In this document: one piece after another, positions 36,410-42,637 of the stretch
How the letters are laid out: every line of letters begins with the position of its first letter
Numbering within the stretch: position 1 is the stretch's first letter
Assembly (NCBI GenBank): GCA_030430575.1
Contig: JAUIKF010000063.1
Coordinates: 1-44,468, forward strand
Source of the DNA: Bacteroidia bacterium
GTDB lineage: Bacteria; Bacteroidota; Bacteroidia; J057
Reading direction: 5' to 3'
Length of the DNA stretch: 44,468 nucleotides
The notes under the pieces: model-generated
What the model was told of the DNA's origin: nothing
Database searches by the model: none
Seen by the model: only the letters and a program-made list of their open reading frames with translations
Program-made: the position numbers and the translations under genes

Positions 36410-37367
36410 CTTTCAATTCTTGCAAGCCCTTCTGCGCCACCGCAGAGATAAAAACAAAGGGGAAAGCATCGTTCAGCGAATCCCTGATTTCGCCTTCGAG
36501 TTCCTCATCGATCATGTCACTTTTGGTGAGGGCCACGAAGCGCGGCGTTTGCATCAAATGGGGATTGTACAATTCCAGTTCGCGCAGGAGAATATCGTAT
36601 GATTCTTTGATGTCGTCGGCGTCAACGGGGATCATAAAGAGCAGAATGCTATTTCGTTCGATATGACGCAGAAACTGTGCGCCGAGGCCCTTGCCTTCAT
36701 TGGCGCCCTCGATAATCCCAGGGATGTCCGCCATCACAAAGGACTGGTGTCCACGATAACGTACGATGCCGAGATTCGGAATGAGGGTGGTGAAGGGGTA
36801 ATCCCCGATTTTGGGTTTGGCTTCGCTTACGACTGAGAGCAAAGTGGACTTGCCTGCATTGGGGAACCCCACGAGGCCTACATCCGCCAGCAGTTTCAGT
36901 TCCAAAATGGCTGTCACCTCTTTGGCTGGCCAGCCTGGCTTGGCGTAGTCGGGCGCTTGGTTGGTGGGCGATTTGAAATGCCAGTTTCCTTTTCCCCCAT
37001 CTCCCCCTTCCAATAAGACAAATTCCTCGTCATGCGCTGTCACTTCCCCCAAAAATTGCCCCGTATCTGCATCTTTGACCATCGTTCCCAGCGGAACTTC
37101 GAGGACGGTATTAGCACCACTTTTCCCACTTTTTCGCTGCCCTGAGCCATTTTTGCCCGGTTCAGCTTTGATGAATTTTCGGTACTTCAAGTCTAATAAG
37201 GTCCAAAGGTTCCGATTGCCTTTGAGGATGATACTTCCGCCTTTGCCTCCATCTCCGCCATCAGGTCCTCCCTTGGGCACGAGAGCTTCTCTGCGCCAAC
37301 TTACGGCGCCATTGCCGCCTGCTCCACTTTTAAAGTATATCTTTACGTAGTCTACAAATGATTGCAT
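36357..37367 (-). CDS. obgE: GTPase Obg (CgtA)
   Basis: The frame extends to 37454 but the added residues derive from a repeat element; the ATG at 37367 gives the family's start [20 protein letters not shown] and 336 residues. The glycine-rich Obg fold spans about 1-158 ([25 protein letters not shown]). The G domain has G1 GFPNAGKS, the G2 region TTLIPNLG, G3 DIPG, G4 TKSD and G5 ISA. Obg binds the large ribosomal subunit and is essential in ribosome maturation and stress control. A GC-rich hairpin element sits immediately upstream, between this gene and the divergent methyltransferase gene. Confidence 0.97.
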
Positions 37368-37396
37368 GGCGCAAGTTAGGCAAAAGATCGGAGATG

Positions 37397-37658
37397 GAGA
37401 CCGCTCGCCCTGCGGGCTCGCTGCGAGAGGCGAGACCGTTCGCGCCTTCGGCACTCACTGCGAGACCGCTCGGCTCGAAGACTCGCCTCACTGCGAGATA
37501 AAGGCATGACTTTTTATCTCTTGTCTCGCCTCTCGCAGTGAGCGGCAGCGAACGGTCTCGGTTCTCGCAGTGAGGAGCTCCGCGACGAACGATCTCGTAG
37601 GGAGCCCGAAGGGCGACCGGTCTCGCAGCGAGGGCTGAGTCTTCGAAGCCCGAGCGGT
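37397..37658. repeat. GC-rich hairpin element, copy 1
   Basis: Bases 37397-37472 match copy 2 (41675-41750) at 75 of 76 positions. The left half is an imperfect inverted repeat of the right half (for example GACCGTTCGC against GCGAACGGTC), so a long hairpin of more than 200 bases can form. It starts GAGACCGCTCG and ends CCGAGCGGTC, and fills the intergenic gap between obg and the divergent methyltransferase gene. No protein is supported here. Confidence 0.85.
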
Positions 37659-37673
37659 CCCACACATACACTT

Positions 37674-38387
37674 ATGGCATTTCACTTCAAACAATTCAGT
37701 ATTTCTCAAGACCGATGTGCGATGAAGATCGGCACAGACGGCATCTTGCTAGGCGCATGGGCAGATTTTGAGGGGGCAAAGACCATCTTGGATGTAGGAA
37801 CAGGGACGGGGCTTCTTGCCCTGATGGCGGCGCAGAAGCAGTCGTCGGCGAAGGTATACGGAGTGGAAATCGTGCCTGAAGCTGCCGAACAAGCCGCGGA
37901 GAATATGCAGGCTTCGCCTTGGGCGGATCGTTTAGAGGTGATCGCAGGCGATATTCGTGAGCTTACTTTTTCACATCCCGTTGACGCCCTCATTTGCAAT
38001 CCGCCATTTTTCCAAAACAGCCTTCCTTCCCCAGATCAGGCCCGTACTTTTGCCCGTCATTCAGATAGCCTTTCTTTAGCGGACTTGTTGAAAAAAGGAG
38101 GAGAAATTCTGATAACATCGGGGAGATTGAGCTTGATTTTACCTGCTTTGATGAGCAAGCAGCTATGGGAATTGGCAGCGAGGTACGACTTCCATGTCAA
38201 GCGTTTTTGGGAGGTAAAACCACGCGTAAGTCGTCCTGCCCATCGAATCTTAGTGGAATTAAGGAAGGCAGAAAACGCAGAAATAGAAAGGGGAGAAATT
38301 TACCTACACAAAGAGGGAAAAAACGAATATTCAACAGCCTACCATGAATTAACACGGGATTTTTATAAATGGTTAGCGGGAAAATAA
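37674..38387 (+). CDS. trmN6: tRNA1(Val) (adenine(37)-N6)-methyltransferase, TrmN6/YfiC type
   Basis: The 237-residue product has the family's opening MAFHFKQFSISQDRCAMKIGTDGILLGAWA, the SAM-binding motif DVGTGTGLLAL (about 40-50), an acidic residue at VEIVPEA and the catalytic NPPF motif (about 109-112) of N6-adenine methyltransferases. A C-terminal region (HRILVEL ... YHELTRDFYKW) completes the fold. It would methylate A37 of tRNA-Val. The ATG at 37674 is 15 bases from the end of the upstream hairpin element. It converges on scpA; hairpins lie between them. Confidence 0.93.
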   Translation: MAFHFKQFSISQDRCAMKIGTDGILLGAWADFEGAKTILDVGTGTGLLALMAAQKQSSAKVYGVEIVPEAAEQAAENMQASPWADRLEVIAGDIRELTFSHPVDALICNPPFFQNSLPSPDQARTFARHSDSLSLADLLKKGGEILITSGRLSLILPALMSKQLWELAARYDFHVKRFWEVKPRVSRPAHRILVELRKAENAEIERGEIYLHKEGKNEYSTAYHELTRDFYKWLAGK

Positions 38388-38410
38388 GGGGGAGAAAATG
38401 GATTTGGGGT

Positions 38411-38456
38411 AAAAAAAAATTAGGGGACTCAACCACAATGTGGGAGTCAACCCTAA
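38411..38456 (-). terminator. Terminator of the scpA transcript
   Basis: TTAGGG-GACTC pairs with GAGTC-CCCTAA, with an inner CCACA/TGTGG stem (38420-38456). On the minus strand the hairpin is followed by nine T (A-run 38411-38419). Confidence 0.8.
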
Positions 38457-38467
38457 CCCCTAGCTTC

Positions 38468-38487
38468 TGTATCAGAATGCTGATACA
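38468..38487. promoter_or_regulatory. Perfect hairpin between convergent genes
   Basis: TGTATCAG and CTGATACA flank AATG. It lies next to the scpA terminator and may support termination from either side. Confidence 0.5.
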
Positions 38488-38587
38488 AGTATAAGAAAGG
38501 GCTAGATAAATTCCAAAACAAATGTAAGAATTGCCGAGAAAAAGAAATGTTTTTCTACGGGTAGGTTTTCATTCCGAGAATTGAAAA

Positions 38588-39394
38588 TCACGGCTGGGTG
38601 TGGCTTTCTGGCTGGTTATCAGGCCCTTCCATTTCGTCTTCCACAGGTGGGTCTTTTTTCTCCAACCAAAAATTATTGAAGCCCTCCCCTACCGTAATAT
38701 CGATATGCTGTGTTTGCACCAATTCCAAGATGCTCAGAAAACAGAACACCACATAGATCCGATCACGGTGCTCCATCACCAAGGTGACAAAATCTATTCG
38801 GTTTTCCGCTCGAACCCGAGTGACGAGGTGTTCTTTGACCTCTTCGATGTCATAGGGATAGCGTCGGATGACGTGAGCTGGCTTGCGAAGCTCGGCTTGG
38901 TGACGCTCCATGATCCGCTTAAAGGCACGCATCAGCGTGTAAAGGCTCAGGCCTACCAGTTCTTCCTCAGGCACCCCTGATTGTAGAAACAGCTTCTCTT
39001 CCCCTTTGGCGAAACCTCGCTTTGCTCGCTCACTCGCTTCATTCTCCATCTCCGCCAGTTGTCCCATGACATCTTTATAGCGCTTGTATTCCAGAAGGCG
39101 CTGTACAAGTTCTTCACGTGGATCGATCTCTTCTCCATGCTCATCCAATTCGGGACGTGGCAAGAGTAGCTTGGCTTTGATCCGCATGAGGGTCGCCGCC
39201 ACATAAATAAACTCAGACGCCAACTCAATATCCATTTCTTGCATCTGCTGGATGTAATCCAAGAAATCATTGGTGATCGTAGCGATCGGAATATCGTGGA
39301 TATCCAGTTCGTCCCGCTCGATGAAAAAGAGCAGTAGGTCAAATGGCCCCTCAAATTGAGGGAGTTGAATGCGGTAGGTTTGCTGATCGGTCAC
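38588..39394 (-). CDS. scpA: Segregation and condensation protein A (ScpA)
   Basis: The 268-residue product shows the ScpA N-terminal SMC-binding region (FEGPFDLLLFFIERDELDIHDIPIATITNDFLDYI), the following LASEFIYVAATLMRIKAKLLLP segment, a coiled middle and a C-terminal winged-helix region (FVTLVMEHRDRIYVVFCFLSILELVQTQ). ScpA is the kleisin that, with ScpB and Smc, organises and segregates the chromosome. The ATG at 39394 follows directly after the family's usual short leader (MTDQQTYRIQLPQ). scpB is not adjacent. Nine heptamer repeats lie 27 to 89 bases upstream of the start, where a promoter would be. Confidence 0.94.
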   Translation of the reverse strand: MTDQQTYRIQLPQFEGPFDLLLFFIERDELDIHDIPIATITNDFLDYIQQMQEMDIELASEFIYVAATLMRIKAKLLLPRPELDEHGEEIDPREELVQRLLEYKRYKDVMGQLAEMENEASERAKRGFAKGEEKLFLQSGVPEEELVGLSLYTLMRAFKRIMERHQAELRKPAHVIRRYPYDIEEVKEHLVTRVRAENRIDFVTLVMEHRDRIYVVFCFLSILELVQTQHIDITVGEGFNNFWLEKKDPPVEDEMEGPDNQPESHTQP

Positions 39395-39406
39395 AGAGGA
39401 AAGTTC

Positions 39407-39483
39407 TAGGGTTTAGGTTCAGGGTTCAGGGTTCAGGGTTCAGGGTTCAGGGTTCAGGGTTCAGGGTTCAGGGTTCAGGGTTC
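39407..39483. repeat. Heptamer tandem repeat (AGGGTTC x 9) upstream of scpA
   Basis: Nine perfect AGGGTTC units occupy 39421-39483, preceded by degenerate AGGGTTT and AGGTTC (39408-39420). The array begins 14 bases upstream of the scpA ATG and lies between scpA and the upstream anti-sigma-like gene's 3' end. Confidence 0.9.
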
Positions 39484-39524
39484 GAGGAATCAATAATCAC
39501 TCAATGAATAATCAATAATTCTTA

Positions 39525-41036
39525 TCACAGCTTGCGAAGCTGTTCCGCAGCTTGGGCCTGATAAGTGCCGCCAGCACCCTGAATAGCGGTAAAGATCGCT
39601 TTTGCTTCAGGTTTCTTGCCTGCGGCAAGATAGGCCAAGGCTAGTTCCCACTGGGCGAGTTGGAATTGGGGGGAGGCGCCTTGGTCAACAACCGCTTTGA
39701 GGCATGGAATCGCCTTAAATACCTGACCATCAGCTCGATAGGATCGTCCTAGGTACAGCCAATTATTTAAGTCCTTTGGAGCGGTTCGAAGTAAGTCTAA
39801 AAATACCCCTTGCGCATTTTTATACTCCTTTTTCTCAAAATAAAAAGTCCCTTGTATATAGAGTACTTGATCTTTCTTTTGTTCGAGTTCTGTCCTTCGG
39901 CCTCGCTCTGCTTCATTTTTGCCTAGTGCTTCCTGGTCCTTTCGCATTTCTTCTTCGGCCTGTTGTCGGGCTCGTTCCTTTTGTGCTTCAGTCCTTTTTT
40001 TGCTAGGCTTCTTTCCTGAGGTAACATCAGGTACTGTGGTCGACGTAGGGGCCGTATTTCCGGGAGAACTCCTTGCACTAATTAATTCCTCTGCTAACAC
40101 TTCGTCCGTCGCGTCTACTTTTGCATCTAGCATGGCATCATCCATCCCATCGGCAACTTCATCATAATCCATCCTCGGTGGCTGTGAAAGCATCGCAAGT
40201 GCCGTCTCTATCACTTGTTGTTCTTTTTCAGAAAAAGCTCCGGCATAAGAAAGAAGCTTGGAATCTGAGAGAGAAGGGCTATTGACTACGAGAATCGTAT
40301 CTGCTTTCAAGTCATTAGCAGCATTAGGTTCAGGGCTAAAATCATCACTTGCGAGTACATCAGAATAACTATTATTAGCCCTTCCGGGTGCGGTATTTCC
40401 TATAGATGGTAATGCGTCCGTCGGGCTAGCATTATCGGTAGGCGTAGCTTCGGTCAACGGACTAGCAGATAATCCAGGTGCAATACTATTTCCAGGAGTA
40501 GACTCGGCTGGCGTCACACTGGTAAATTGTGGATCATCTCCCATTACTGGCTTATGCACCAATTCAGGTTGTTTTTCAGCTTGTTCCTCACGGGGAGAGG
40601 TATTATTCGCTATTCCATTCCCATTTCCAAGCGCGTCATCACTTCTCTCTGCCAGCATTGGTGCACTGGCATGTCTATCTTGTCCGATGCGGAAATTGAT
40701 ATAAATGGCGGAAGACGCCACAAAAAGTACCACCAACACCGCCACAGCGGCGGTGGCATACTGCATGAAGTTGAAGGAATTGATGCGGGGCTTGCGCTTC
40801 TGCTTGAGCAGGCGCGTGGTACGCGCCCGGATATCGATGGCCGCAGCCGCCGTCGCGGTTGCTGGATCGGGAAGGCTCTGCAAGCCTTCCAGTGCATCCG
40901 CATACAGCGGATTCTCTTCCATAAAAGACTCTACCACAGCCTGCTCCGTCACAGAGAGTTTCCCCTCCGCGTAGCGGGTAAGTACAGGGACTGGTGCCCG
41001 AGCCAGTTCTGACTGTATATGTAGCTGTTCACTCAT
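39525..41036 (-). CDS. Probable anti-sigma factor with long extracytoplasmic TPR tail
   Basis: The 503-residue product overlaps the sigma gene by four bases (ATGA), a classic coupled arrangement. The cytoplasmic N-terminus (about 1-85) includes ARYAEGKLS-like TRYAEGKLSVTEQAVVESFMEENPLYADALEGLQ, matching the helical anti-sigma module frequent in Bacteroidota. One transmembrane helix (about 92-115) follows, then a low-complexity Thr/Pro/Asn/Ser-rich region, a charged coiled stretch rich in Lys, Glu and Arg (about 340-390) and TPR-like repeats to the end (QGVFLDLLRTAPKDLNNWLYLGRSYRADGQ). Anti-sigma function is inferred from position and topology. The periplasmic TPR part may sense protein partners. 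Confidence 0.75.
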   Translation of the reverse strand: MSEQLHIQSELARAPVPVLTRYAEGKLSVTEQAVVESFMEENPLYADALEGLQSLPDPATATAAAAIDIRARTTRLLKQKRKPRINSFNFMQYATAAVAVLVVLFVASSAIYINFRIGQDRHASAPMLAERSDDALGNGNGIANNTSPREEQAEKQPELVHKPVMGDDPQFTSVTPAESTPGNSIAPGLSASPLTEATPTDNASPTDALPSIGNTAPGRANNSYSDVLASDDFSPEPNAANDLKADTILVVNSPSLSDSKLLSYAGAFSEKEQQVIETALAMLSQPPRMDYDEVADGMDDAMLDAKVDATDEVLAEELISARSSPGNTAPTSTTVPDVTSGKKPSKKRTEAQKERARQQAEEEMRKDQEALGKNEAERGRRTELEQKKDQVLYIQGTFYFEKKEYKNAQGVFLDLLRTAPKDLNNWLYLGRSYRADGQVFKAIPCLKAVVDQGASPQFQLAQWELALAYLAAGKKPEAKAIFTAIQGAGGTYQAQAAEQLRKL

Positions 41037-41635
41037 TCTGCCAAATTTTCTTCCATCGCCAGGAGATGGTTTTTTAGGTTGCGTTTTCCATTTTGGATGT
41101 AACTTTTGACTTGCATCATCGTGTAGCCCGTCTCCGTTACTACCTCCTTATAGCTTTTTTGTTGGAGGTAAAATAGCTCAATACAGGTCCGTTGTTCATC
41201 TTTGAGCTTGCCAATGGCCGTTGTGAGATGATGCAGGCGGCTTTCTTCCAGCTCCATCTCGCCAAAAAGAGCAGGCGTAGGGTCAGATTCCACAAGTGCT
41301 TGCTCATCTTCCTGAAAATTCTCTGCTTTTTGTCGCTCCTTTGTCTTGCGATCCAGCACCGCCAGGCACTGATTCTTCACTACAGTATGCAACCAGTATT
41401 TAAAGCTACGCACTTCATACCGCAGCAGGTCCTTAAGCAATTTTTCAAATACCCACATCACCACATCTTTGGCTTCTTCCTCGTCCTTTAGGTATTTCAT
41501 ACTCACCAGAAACGCCAGGTCCGTATAGCGCTCAAACAATTCTCCTACAAACTCCGTGTCCTCTTCCTCACGGTAGAGACGGATCAGTTCTTCATCTTCG
41601 AGCTGCGATAGGTTATGTCGTTTGCGAAATAGCAT
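41033..41635 (-). CDS. ECF-family RNA polymerase sigma factor
   Basis: The frame opens at a TTG (41650), but the ATG at 41635 is preferred: a TATATTTG box at 41648-41655 overlaps the TTG, so transcription would start downstream of it. The 200-residue product has region 2 (ELFERYTDLAFLVSMKYLKDEEEAKDVVMWVFEKLL, then FKYWLHTVVKNQCLAVLDR) and region 4 (LHHLTTAIGKLKDEQRTCIELFYLQQKSYKEVVTETG, then MMQVKSYIQNGKRNLKNHL). The next gene encodes a probable membrane anti-sigma partner, overlapping by four bases. Regulon unknown. Confidence 0.9.
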   Translation of the reverse strand: MLFRKRHNLSQLEDEELIRLYREEEDTEFVGELFERYTDLAFLVSMKYLKDEEEAKDVVMWVFEKLLKDLLRYEVRSFKYWLHTVVKNQCLAVLDRKTKERQKAENFQEDEQALVESDPTPALFGEMELEESRLHHLTTAIGKLKDEQRTCIELFYLQQKSYKEVVTETGYTMMQVKSYIQNGKRNLKNHLLAMEENLAE

Positions 41636-41647
41636 GAATCGGCTCTT

Positions 41648-41655
41648 CAAATATA
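41648..41655 (-). promoter_or_regulatory. -7 box TATATTTG of the sigma/anti-sigma operon
   Basis: Matches TAnnTTTG on the minus strand, 12 bases before the ATG at 41635. No clear -33 TTTG was found, and the region upstream is the GC-rich hairpin element. Confidence 0.5.
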
Positions 41656-41674
41656 CAATTTTTCTGAGAAGGGA

Positions 41675-41903
41675 GAGACCGCTCGCCCTGCGGGCTCGCT
41701 GCGAGAGGCGAGATCGTTCGCGCCTTCGGCACTCACTGCGAGACCGCTCGCCTTTCAGGCTCGCTGCGAGACAAAAGACAAAAAGAATCTGCCTTTATCT
41801 CGCAGCGAAGGCGAGTCTTCGAGCCTGAGCGGTCTCGCAGTGAGCGCCAGCGAACGATCTCGGTTCTCGCAGCGAAGGCCCTTCTTAGGGCCTGAGCGGT
41901 CTC
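41675..41903. repeat. GC-rich hairpin element, copy 2
   Basis: Terminal inverted sequences GAGACCGCTC (41675) and GAGCGGTCTC (41894-41903) bound a long imperfect hairpin. The arm GATCGTTCGC pairs with GCGAACGATC. Its right end supplies the last residues (RPLRP) and stop codon of the lgt-like gene. The other end lies 19 bases from the sigma operon's -7 box. Confidence 0.85.
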
Positions 41904-42637
41904 TTCACCGCATAATACACCAGCCCCAACAAACATGCCACCTGGATGCTCATCAGGCCAAAAGGAAAGGTGTAGACAGGTTTGAGGAAATCAATGAAGA
42001 AACGGAAGATTAGGTAAGCAACCATGAAGAGCTTAAAACGATCACCGCTTTTGAGGGGACGGCGGGATTCGAGGAAACGGAGGCTAAGCCAGAGTAGGCC
42101 AAGGAAGAGGATTTCGTACAACGCTGCGGGGTGCCGCATGAGGCCGTCGCCAAGGTCCATGCCCCACGGCATCGTGGTTTCGATGCCATGTGTACCGTCT
42201 TCTATGCCAGCGAGGAAGCAGCCTACCCGGCCGATCATCATCCCTAGGATGATGGGATAGGTGAAAAGGTCGCCCGAAGATTGGCGTTCGCCAATGAGCT
42301 TTTTGGTAAGTTCTACCCCAAAGAGGCCGCCGAGCAAGCCACCAACAATGGTCTTATTGGCATAATAATACAGCCAGCCTTGTTCGCAGCCACCTGACAC
42401 AAAACATGGCCAATTTTCCATGGTACCCAACAATCGAGACCCTACTAAGGCCCCTACTGTAGCGCCTACAATGATCCACAGGCGTCCTGTAGTAGTGATG
42501 TGGTCTTCTTGCTGGCGACGAAGATAGAGGAAATAGCGGAAGGCAATAAAAAATGCCAACAGCTCAAAAAGTAGGTGGGGGTTGAAACGGCCATCGCCGA
42601 TTTCGATATAGAAGGGAAGAGTGAAGGAATCAAGCAA
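41885..42637 (-). CDS. Lgt-like (prolipoprotein diacylglyceryl transferase family) membrane protein
   Basis: The 250-residue product has about seven hydrophobic helices and the family's landmarks GRVGCFLAGIEDGTHG and RHPAALYE, which correspond to the Lgt signature and HPxQLYE box. It would transfer diacylglycerol to the lipobox Cys of prolipoproteins. However, the HGGL motif is replaced by VGGL, and the Asn of GRxxN is Cys, both important in E. coli Lgt, so a diverged or different acyl-transfer role is possible. There is no ATG in a sensible place; a TTG at 42637 is used, and it lies within a 40-bp AT-rich repeat. The C-terminus is encoded by a hairpin repeat. The gene follows the lipoprotein gene by 83 bases. 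Confidence 0.75.
   Translation of the reverse strand: MLDSFTLPFYIEIGDGRFNPHLLFELLAFFIAFRYFLYLRRQQEDHITTTGRLWIIVGATVGALVGSRLLGTMENWPCFVSGGCEQGWLYYYANKTIVGGLLGGLFGVELTKKLIGERQSSGDLFTYPIILGMMIGRVGCFLAGIEDGTHGIETTMPWGMDLGDGLMRHPAALYEILFLGLLWLSLRFLESRRPLKSGDRFKLFMVAYLIFRFFIDFLKPVYTFPFGLMSIQVACLLGLVYYAVKRPLRP

Follow-up and report, generated by a model that had tools for sequence, protein, structure and literature searches.

The window analysed here is a 44,468-nucleotide (nt) stretch of contig JAUIKF010000063.1 from a member of the Bacteroidia (GenBank assembly GCA_030430575.1), and it carries two long inverted elements, element 1 (37397..37661) between the divergent genes obg and trmN6, and element 2 (41675..41903) between a sigma-factor gene and an lgt-like gene. 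The original prediction, made from this window, described them as copies of one hairpin sharing 76 bases with a single mismatch, which is exactly what we observe (37397-37472 against 41675-41750, C versus T at offset 39), and it called for a genome search for more copies. That search revealed a dispersed, structured and non-coding repeat family, whose ends facing the 3' end of a gene mostly lie on its stop codon. The predicted limits stand for the whole of copy 2 and for the start of copy 1, whereas copy 1 ends at 37661 and not at 37658. The copies were also said to fill their intergenic gaps, which is approximately right, as the start codons of obg and trmN6 are 306 nt apart, of which copy 1 takes up 265, and copy 2 runs into the lgt-like frame, the last codons and TAA stop of which (41885..41903, minus strand) are the last 19 nt of the element. 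A position next to promoters may hold for copy 2 only, where one 9/12 sigma-70-type match (41941-41912, minus strand) adjoins the element; none adjoins copy 1, the family is found mostly at gene 3' ends, and the scan returned 6 sites against 3.8 (standard deviation 2.0) in shuffles, with a consensus that may not suit this phylum.

Element 1 comprises three forward units, a centre and four reverse units. In the left arm (plus strand), unit L1 (37397..37428) reads GAGACCGCTC - GCCCTGCGGGC - TCGCTGCGAGA, unit L2 (37432..37465) reads GAGACCGTTC with the loop GCGCCTTCGGCAC and bears the C of the C/T difference, and unit L3 (37462..37498) holds the long nested hairpin GGCTCGAAGACTCGCC. The centre (37499..37530), with TAAAGGCA, is followed on the minus strand by the innermost right-arm unit (37531..37559), in which AACGGTC matches L2, by a unit (37563..37596) in which AACGATC represents an alternative, non-matching partner of L2, by a unit of the G type (GAGACCGGTC / TCCCTACGAGA; 37593..37624), and by the outermost unit (37621..37661) with the long nested hairpin GGGCTTCGAAGACTCAGCCC. 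Element 2 has three forward and three reverse units. Its L1 (41675..41706, plus strand) is identical to that of element 1, L2 (41710..41743, plus strand) reads GAGATCGTTC and bears the T, and L3 (41740..41771, plus strand) carries the short hairpin GCCTTTCAGGC. The centre (41772..41797), with TGCCTTTA, is oriented opposite to that of element 1, and the minus-strand arm consists of an innermost unit (41798..41836) whose long nested hairpin faces the short one of L3, of R2 (41833..41861), where AACGATC is the partner of L2, and of an outermost unit (41865..41903). The proposed pairing with the opposite arm can thus be found in both copies (GCGAACGGTCTC in copy 1, GCGAACGATCTC in copy 2), but the match in copy 1 could be chosen from two, since two of the four right-arm units could be the partner and one of these does not match. 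Both copies fold far better than dinucleotide shuffles (z of -6.9 for copy 1 and -15.3 for copy 2).

Across the family, the unit is a hairpin, mostly of 27-41 nt, built from an A-box, GAGAYCGNTC(G), a side hairpin and a B-box, (C)TCN'CTGNNAGA. An arm mostly consists of three or four units in head-to-tail order, two arms are inverted about a short centre, and most elements measure 220-280 nt. The centre is mostly a CTAAAGGCA...CTCTTG segment that occurs in either orientation (33 and 34, with 16 undecided). The positions N and N' form Watson-Crick pairs in 543 of 575 units (C:G 321, T:A 203, G:C 19), where about 277 are expected from the margins. The side-hairpin loops of the 575 units comprise 178 distinct sequences; the 169 distinct loops of 8-30 nt form a mean terminal stem of 2.8 pairs, as compared to 0.43 when shuffled, and many nest the same N-TCG...CTC-N' motif as the unit itself. 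The identity of N depends on the level in the arm, being mostly C in outer units (62/70 left arms, 64/70 right) and inner units (66/70 left, 61/70 right), and mostly T in middle units (76/105 left, 74/92 right). Free-standing N-TCG...CTC-N' hairpins, for example CCTTCGACAAGCTCAGG, also occur outside elements, 116 having stems of at least 4 pairs in 2.0 Mb as against 22-42 for six altered motifs, and they have in common with the units a tandem-mismatch core of T-C/C-T on one strand and G-A/A-G on the other. The flanks of the elements, read towards the element, are poor in C, and G occupies position -5 at 41-60% of sites, irrespective of the reading frame.

The 32-nt unit taken from copy 1 has 94 matches in the genome at up to 3 mismatches, the reversed pattern none, and a strict two-box pattern gives 498 matches in the 8.16-Mb genome where its control gives 0. 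From 2.0 Mb of contigs together with fetched loci, 97 distinct elements were parsed, 83 two-armed and 14 one-armed, counting an element only if it had at least 3 parsed units and lay at least 40 nt from the end of its stretch, and counting identical sequences once. The genome total is estimated at approximately 178 elements, from 498 units and 2.8 strict units per element in the 2.0 Mb; the density per Mb was not used because the contigs had been chosen partly for holding matches. The assembly comprises 127 contigs and is 99% complete, and genes were called with a codon-usage script and not taken from annotation. In the joined contigs, a called gene overlaps an element by more than 30 nt in only 2 of 56 cases, i.e. 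the family is extragenic. The strict pattern is absent from the other 394 genomes of a Bacteroidota phylum sample, and no unit is present in 12 other genomes of the same family, the congener included. Simple relatives were judged real by eye in at least 6 stretches (L091, L100, L101, L104, L106, L110) belonging to four further Bacteroidota assemblies, where simple units stand alone or in direct tandem and the sequence read shows no inverted architecture. Three of these (L106, L110 and L100, from Bacteroidetes bin.48 and Saprospiraceae MAG-15) are direct tandem arrays of a 24-31-nt simple unit with mostly the same N:N' pairing, located off stop codons. The other 16 of at least 22 listed matches in other assemblies were judged by eye to be chance; a 22-nt match at a contig edge of relative G010, with no further boxes, and three viral-contig matches, all to one stretch with no boxes in 60 nt on either side, were likewise taken as chance. 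The plasmid sequences searched hold no match to the unit. Within the genome, the elements of loci L063 and L072 (contig C90, 38658 and 41363) lie 2.7 kb apart and have a common centre and right flank, and are probably a local duplication.

The position of the elements relative to stop codons had not been foreseen. Of the ends that face the 3' end of a gene, 83 of 107 lie at -3..+2 of the stop, with similar proportions in the joined contigs (48/61) and the remaining loci (35/46). When the gene finder is dispensed with and open frames of at least 100 codons are used, 82 of 180 outer ends are at -3..+2 of a stop, 39 at -2 (T/GAGACC, the slash marking the edge of the element) and 14 at -1 (TA/GAGACC), so that the element often supplies part of the stop codon. 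Elsewhere, outer ends are sparse, with 9 at -60..-4 and none at -4..-12, and 19 at +3..+60, five of them at +3..+5; on the opposite strand no outer end is at -3..+2 of a stop. One-armed elements show the same behaviour (8 of 14 outer ends on a stop). As controls, other dispersed hairpins of this genome yield 1 of 94 distances to gene 3' ends at the stop, and uniform placement in 3' gaps would put 5.9% within 0..2. The 48 abutting stops are depleted in TAA (TGA 25, TAG 17, TAA 6, against 434, 366 and 603 for all called genes). In 16 two-armed elements, both ends lie on stops of open frames of at least 60 codons, although convergent gaps without an element (216 cases) have a median length of 93 nt, and no more than 10 nt separates the genes in just 8% of them. 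Convergent pairs are over-represented (18 of 56 elements, against 177 of 1035 background gaps of at least 50 nt), and ends that face gene starts keep a distance of 11 nt or more in 69 of 72 cases. Comparison of 54 abutting genes to 0.4 Mb of the congener gave one usable orthologue (78% identity, full length), in which translation stops after the same residue, at a TAA in place of the T/GA provided by the element; judged from this alignment, the ancestral stop position has been retained in the sole testable case. Simple insertion into a stop codon was rejected as the origin of the abutment because the far end of the element lacks the remainder of the codon.

The original prediction took the C/T change and its matching partner as a sign that pairing between the arms is selected, or that the arms correct each other. 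This is not borne out by the 78 elements with at least two units per arm. For unit 2 of 32 equal-armed elements, agreement between own arms is close to that of permuted arms (Y 18 vs 16.7, N 22 vs 19.1, N' 20 vs 18.9), as it is for unit 3 of 29 elements (Y 19 vs 15.3, N 19 vs 16.2, N' 18 vs 15.8); among 15 tests on Y, N and N' the smallest permutation tail was 229/2000, and none fell below 0.11. The sole feature that agrees is the CG/TC sub-family mark (unit 2, 29 vs 21.9, 0/2000 permutations). In co-folding of 54 of the 60 elements with at least three units per arm, with swaps made within sub-family and arm size and groups below 4 dropped, own arms were on average 14.1 kcal/mol less stable than swapped arms (Wilcoxon p 1.7e-8, RNA energy parameters). 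These results come close to the pattern that the original prediction itself named as refuting it. The covariation sits inside the unit, between N and N', and not between the arms. A weaker form of the original prediction survives, in that a given level mostly has the same box type on either arm, which keeps the arms pairable without covariation.

The lower stability of own arms arises because their opposing side hairpins differ. In the 60 elements with at least three units per arm, the innermost exact loops are equal in none (9.2 expected) and the innermost loop classes in 1 (17.1 expected), and the innermost pair is made up of one long and one short hairpin in 54 (Fisher 2.9e-10). The outermost level behaves likewise to a lesser degree, with loop classes equal in 2 of 60 (7.3 expected, p 0.016) and long facing short in 42 of 60 (p 0.004). 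At the middle level of elements with three units in each arm, 14 of 22 pairs are long and short (length correlation -0.36, p 0.10), and exact middle loops are equal in 0 against 1.3 expected, which is not significant. Which side carries the long hairpin is unrelated between the outer and inner levels (22 opposite, 17 same, 21 undecided). A fixed polarity of the element was rejected as the cause, as innermost loops remain unequal when elements are oriented by their centre (0 equal of 52, 8.7 expected) and outer and inner polarity are unrelated. The difference between opposing hairpins indicates that long palindromes close to perfection are either avoided or lost, whereas the hairpin of the unit is kept.

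A nuclease that cleaves palindromes should work against such elements. SbcCD is described as removing hairpins and cruciforms (PMC6265447) and as cleaving long palindromes (PMC7326373). In a search limited to sbcD, the sbcD model gave no match in this genome and scored above cut-off in 10 of 14 relatives searched, among them the congener, where the protein was also found. The frames neighbouring the congener's sbcD gave two distant matches in the quarter of this genome searched, with no syntenic locus found there.

Several other features of the region and the genome deserve mention. The lgt-like protein (41885-42637) gives weak scores of 41 and 36 bits with prolipoprotein diacylglyceryl transferase models, far below cut-off, and has no close match among four relatives, so that it provides no orthologue for comparison of its 3' end. 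The genes of window and genome from which the phylum is taken as Bacteroidota matched Sig70_bacteroi1 below its cut-off and, at a score above cut-off, a T9SS type B sorting domain. The heptamer GTTCAGG is repeated in tandem approximately 11.6 times at 39403-39483, between the frames 38588-39394 and 39525-41036. Elsewhere in the genome, a repetitive extragenic palindromic (REP)-associated tyrosine transposase gene (NF047646, 97.4 bits against a cut-off of 80; L124 1083-2190, contig C73 near 309,700) has on its flanks a different and unrelated palindrome in several copies, GGGCGGATTACGCAAAGA...AATCCGGAAATCCGCCC.

Based on these observations, we propose, at roughly even confidence, that the elements form a composite palindrome family resembling REPs and bacterial interspersed mosaic elements (BIMEs), kept at gene 3' ends and tolerated after the loss of SbcCD, a scheme in which we infer both function and mobility. 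The unit would once have been a simple palindromic repeat, as seen in a few other Bacteroidota assemblies, which in this lineage then multiplied and expanded into inverted arrays. Palindromes of mostly 220-280 nt would have been free to accumulate after the hairpin nuclease SbcCD was lost, while arms too perfectly complementary would still be lost, leaving pairs of long opposite short hairpins. Copies would persist at 3' ends as the mRNA may there fold, from the stop codon onwards, into a hairpin of high stability, which by analogy to Escherichia coli REPs would most likely shield the message from 3' exonucleases and hold back terminating ribosomes. The spacer between stop and hairpin could then be deleted until the stop overlaps the first bases of the hairpin, T/GA being nearly the minimum possible; the mode at -2 fits such stepwise deletion to about the last position that leaves a stop, provided that selection keeps the element. 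A more specific version, which we hold only tentatively and consider possible rather than probable, is that of a stop-tied family in an SbcCD-less lineage, in which the first bases of the element are part of the stop, many convergent gaps amount to one branched hairpin, and a long hairpin faces a short one at each level, on a side unrelated between levels, as if each had been inverted separately via a four-way junction.

A number of observations weigh against the proposed scheme. Among ends facing a gene 3' end, 24 of 107 do not abut the stop, and of the 82 two-armed elements whose neighbours on both sides were called, 11 (one of them element 1) occupy divergent sites that offer no stop to attach to. 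Element-free gaps behind genes have medians of approximately 93-107 nt, i.e. there is no general deletion ratchet, and any ratchet must therefore depend on the element itself. In other Bacteroidota the simple arrays lie off stop codons among the matches listed, except one at -1, which speaks against abutment as a property of the unit as such. At decided tandem sites the orientation of the centre has no clear relation to transcription (20 to 15), and an RNA function tied to one strand is less likely for this reason. The folding energies are those of RNA parameters. A GTAG or CGTC terminal tag, the mark of known REP super-families, was not seen in unit ends of GAGAYC and NNAGA, as read from the sequences without a dedicated scan, and the three Y1_Tnp matches in the 127 contigs have no unit within up to 1.5 kb on each side. 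The absence of sbcD concerns one genome in 127 contigs and is a correlation; moreover, the four of 14 relatives without an sbcD match, two of them highly fragmented, show no elements either, and loss of sbcD would for this reason permit rather than cause them.

The original prediction offered a non-autonomous mobile element or a structured RNA. The elements are indeed dispersed, structured and non-coding and possibly were once mobile, but neither target-site duplications nor an Rfam match at gathering score accompany them. The main rival to our proposal, which we regard as unlikely, is a still mobile non-autonomous element, akin to REP doublets forming hairpins (REPINs) or to miniature inverted-repeat transposable elements (MITEs), inserted at stops through a single-strand or RNA intermediate by an enzyme acting in trans, in which case target choice and not trimming would set the abutment. 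It would account for the many dispersed, lineage-specific copies, for the sharp peak of element ends at -2..0 and for the G at -5 and scarcity of C in the flanks, common to every site class, and REPs of the GTAG type are also said to supply stop codons (PMC3733652). An element-free version of one site, of the kind that the original prediction asked for, speaks for it as well as for our own proposal: obg and trmN6, adjacent in 1 of 4 relatives searched, stand head to head in the unit-free congener across a gap of approximately 82 nt instead of 306, a comparison of gap lengths, the former by arithmetic on gene positions, and not of junction sequences. Target-site duplications of at least 5 nt, in contrast, flank 0 of 72 elements (0.38 in shuffles), the remainder of the stop codon is missing at the far end, 16 elements sit on stops at both ends although so few element-free convergent gaps are that short, and the sole tested gene above the REP-type transposase cut-off lies amid a different palindrome.

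Less likely again is a structured RNA or a two-way transcription terminator behind genes, with the branched fold as the functional entity. Folding far below shuffles, box types that depend largely on the level in either arm, the placement at 3' ends and the excess of convergent pairs all speak for it, and with TTTT or AAAA in 53 of 83 centres, one arm may be followed by a terminator inside the element. The element ends were rejected as sites of intrinsic termination, as T-tracts follow 17 of 166 ends and 67 of 664 control windows further out, and no known RNA family was found in Rfam 15 at gathering score (positions 37000-42300 of the window; the sole match, MIR9486, has 29.9 bits against a cut-off of 100). 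The divergent sites and arms that do not covary and pair worse than swapped ones also count against a function of this kind. That the elements are neutral palindromic junk, multiplied after loss of SbcCD and without function at gene ends, seems improbable to us; the lack of an sbcD match and the one-armed and decayed copies are compatible with it, but it leaves unexplained the exact abutment of stops and the vanished spacers beside elements that were kept. We give almost no credence to chance similarity or to an artefact of assembly. Assemblies can break at perfect palindromes, and homotypic elements could be missed in this way; against this stand 498 units versus 0 control matches, the same stop-codon rule in two separate sets of loci, and boxes at 0 of 20 contig ends examined, a count of low power as approximately 0.3 would be expected from random windows.

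REP-type repeats are widespread, and their function and the cause of their unlike partners are questions that here become measurable in an estimated 180 natural copies. One genome joins hairpins that start at the stop, near-absolute unlikeness of innermost hairpins and apparent loss of a palindrome-cutting nuclease. If this is true in more strains, the emergence of giant repeats would be tied to the clearance of palindromes by SbcCD, and 3'-end hairpins coupled to translation could be tested directly in Bacteroidota. In the open-licence literature searched, we found no description of this repeat. Pneumococcal BOX and Neisseria dRS3 and NEMIS are hairpin repeats between genes as well, a likeness by description only. 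Parvovirus-type terminal palindromes are broken by smaller side palindromes in either order, which is an analogy of shape with no relation claimed. dRS3 is assigned to CGTC-1 in PMC3733652. REPINs, which go with REP-associated tyrosine transposases (RAYTs), are likewise inverted palindromes round a spacer, dispersed in intergenic DNA; unlike in that system, the flanks of the three Y1 genes are free of units over up to 1.5 kb on each side and the NF047646 gene is associated with another palindrome. From MITEs the family differs in the missing target-site duplication. Ribosomes of E. coli are reported to stall at REPs that lie no more than 15 nt from a stop (PMC12306157, citing Liang 2015), and the stable hairpin a few nt after the stop is a common feature (PMC12306157); here, a branched element of mostly 220-280 nt touches or overlaps the stop instead of following it at up to 15 nt.

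The closest likeness is to the REPs and BIMEs of the GTAG and CGTC super-families, which PMC3733652 describes as short imperfect palindromes, extragenic and of high copy number, arranged in inverted pairs and mosaics and preferring gene 3' ends; GTAG ends often supply TAG stops, and opposing partners are often unlike, i.e. heterodimers, a preference for which the same source sees no obvious explanation. The present family likewise has a palindromic unit of 20-40 nt, high extragenic copy number, inverted clustering and a location mainly at gene 3' ends. It differs in its three to four units per arm, its nested side hairpins, the N:N' covariation within the unit, stop abutment within -3..+2 and heterotypic pairing that is near absolute at the innermost level. 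As neither the tags nor a linked transposase were found, we place it outside the GTAG and CGTC super-families: it is of the REP/BIME type in most features, yet a new variant.

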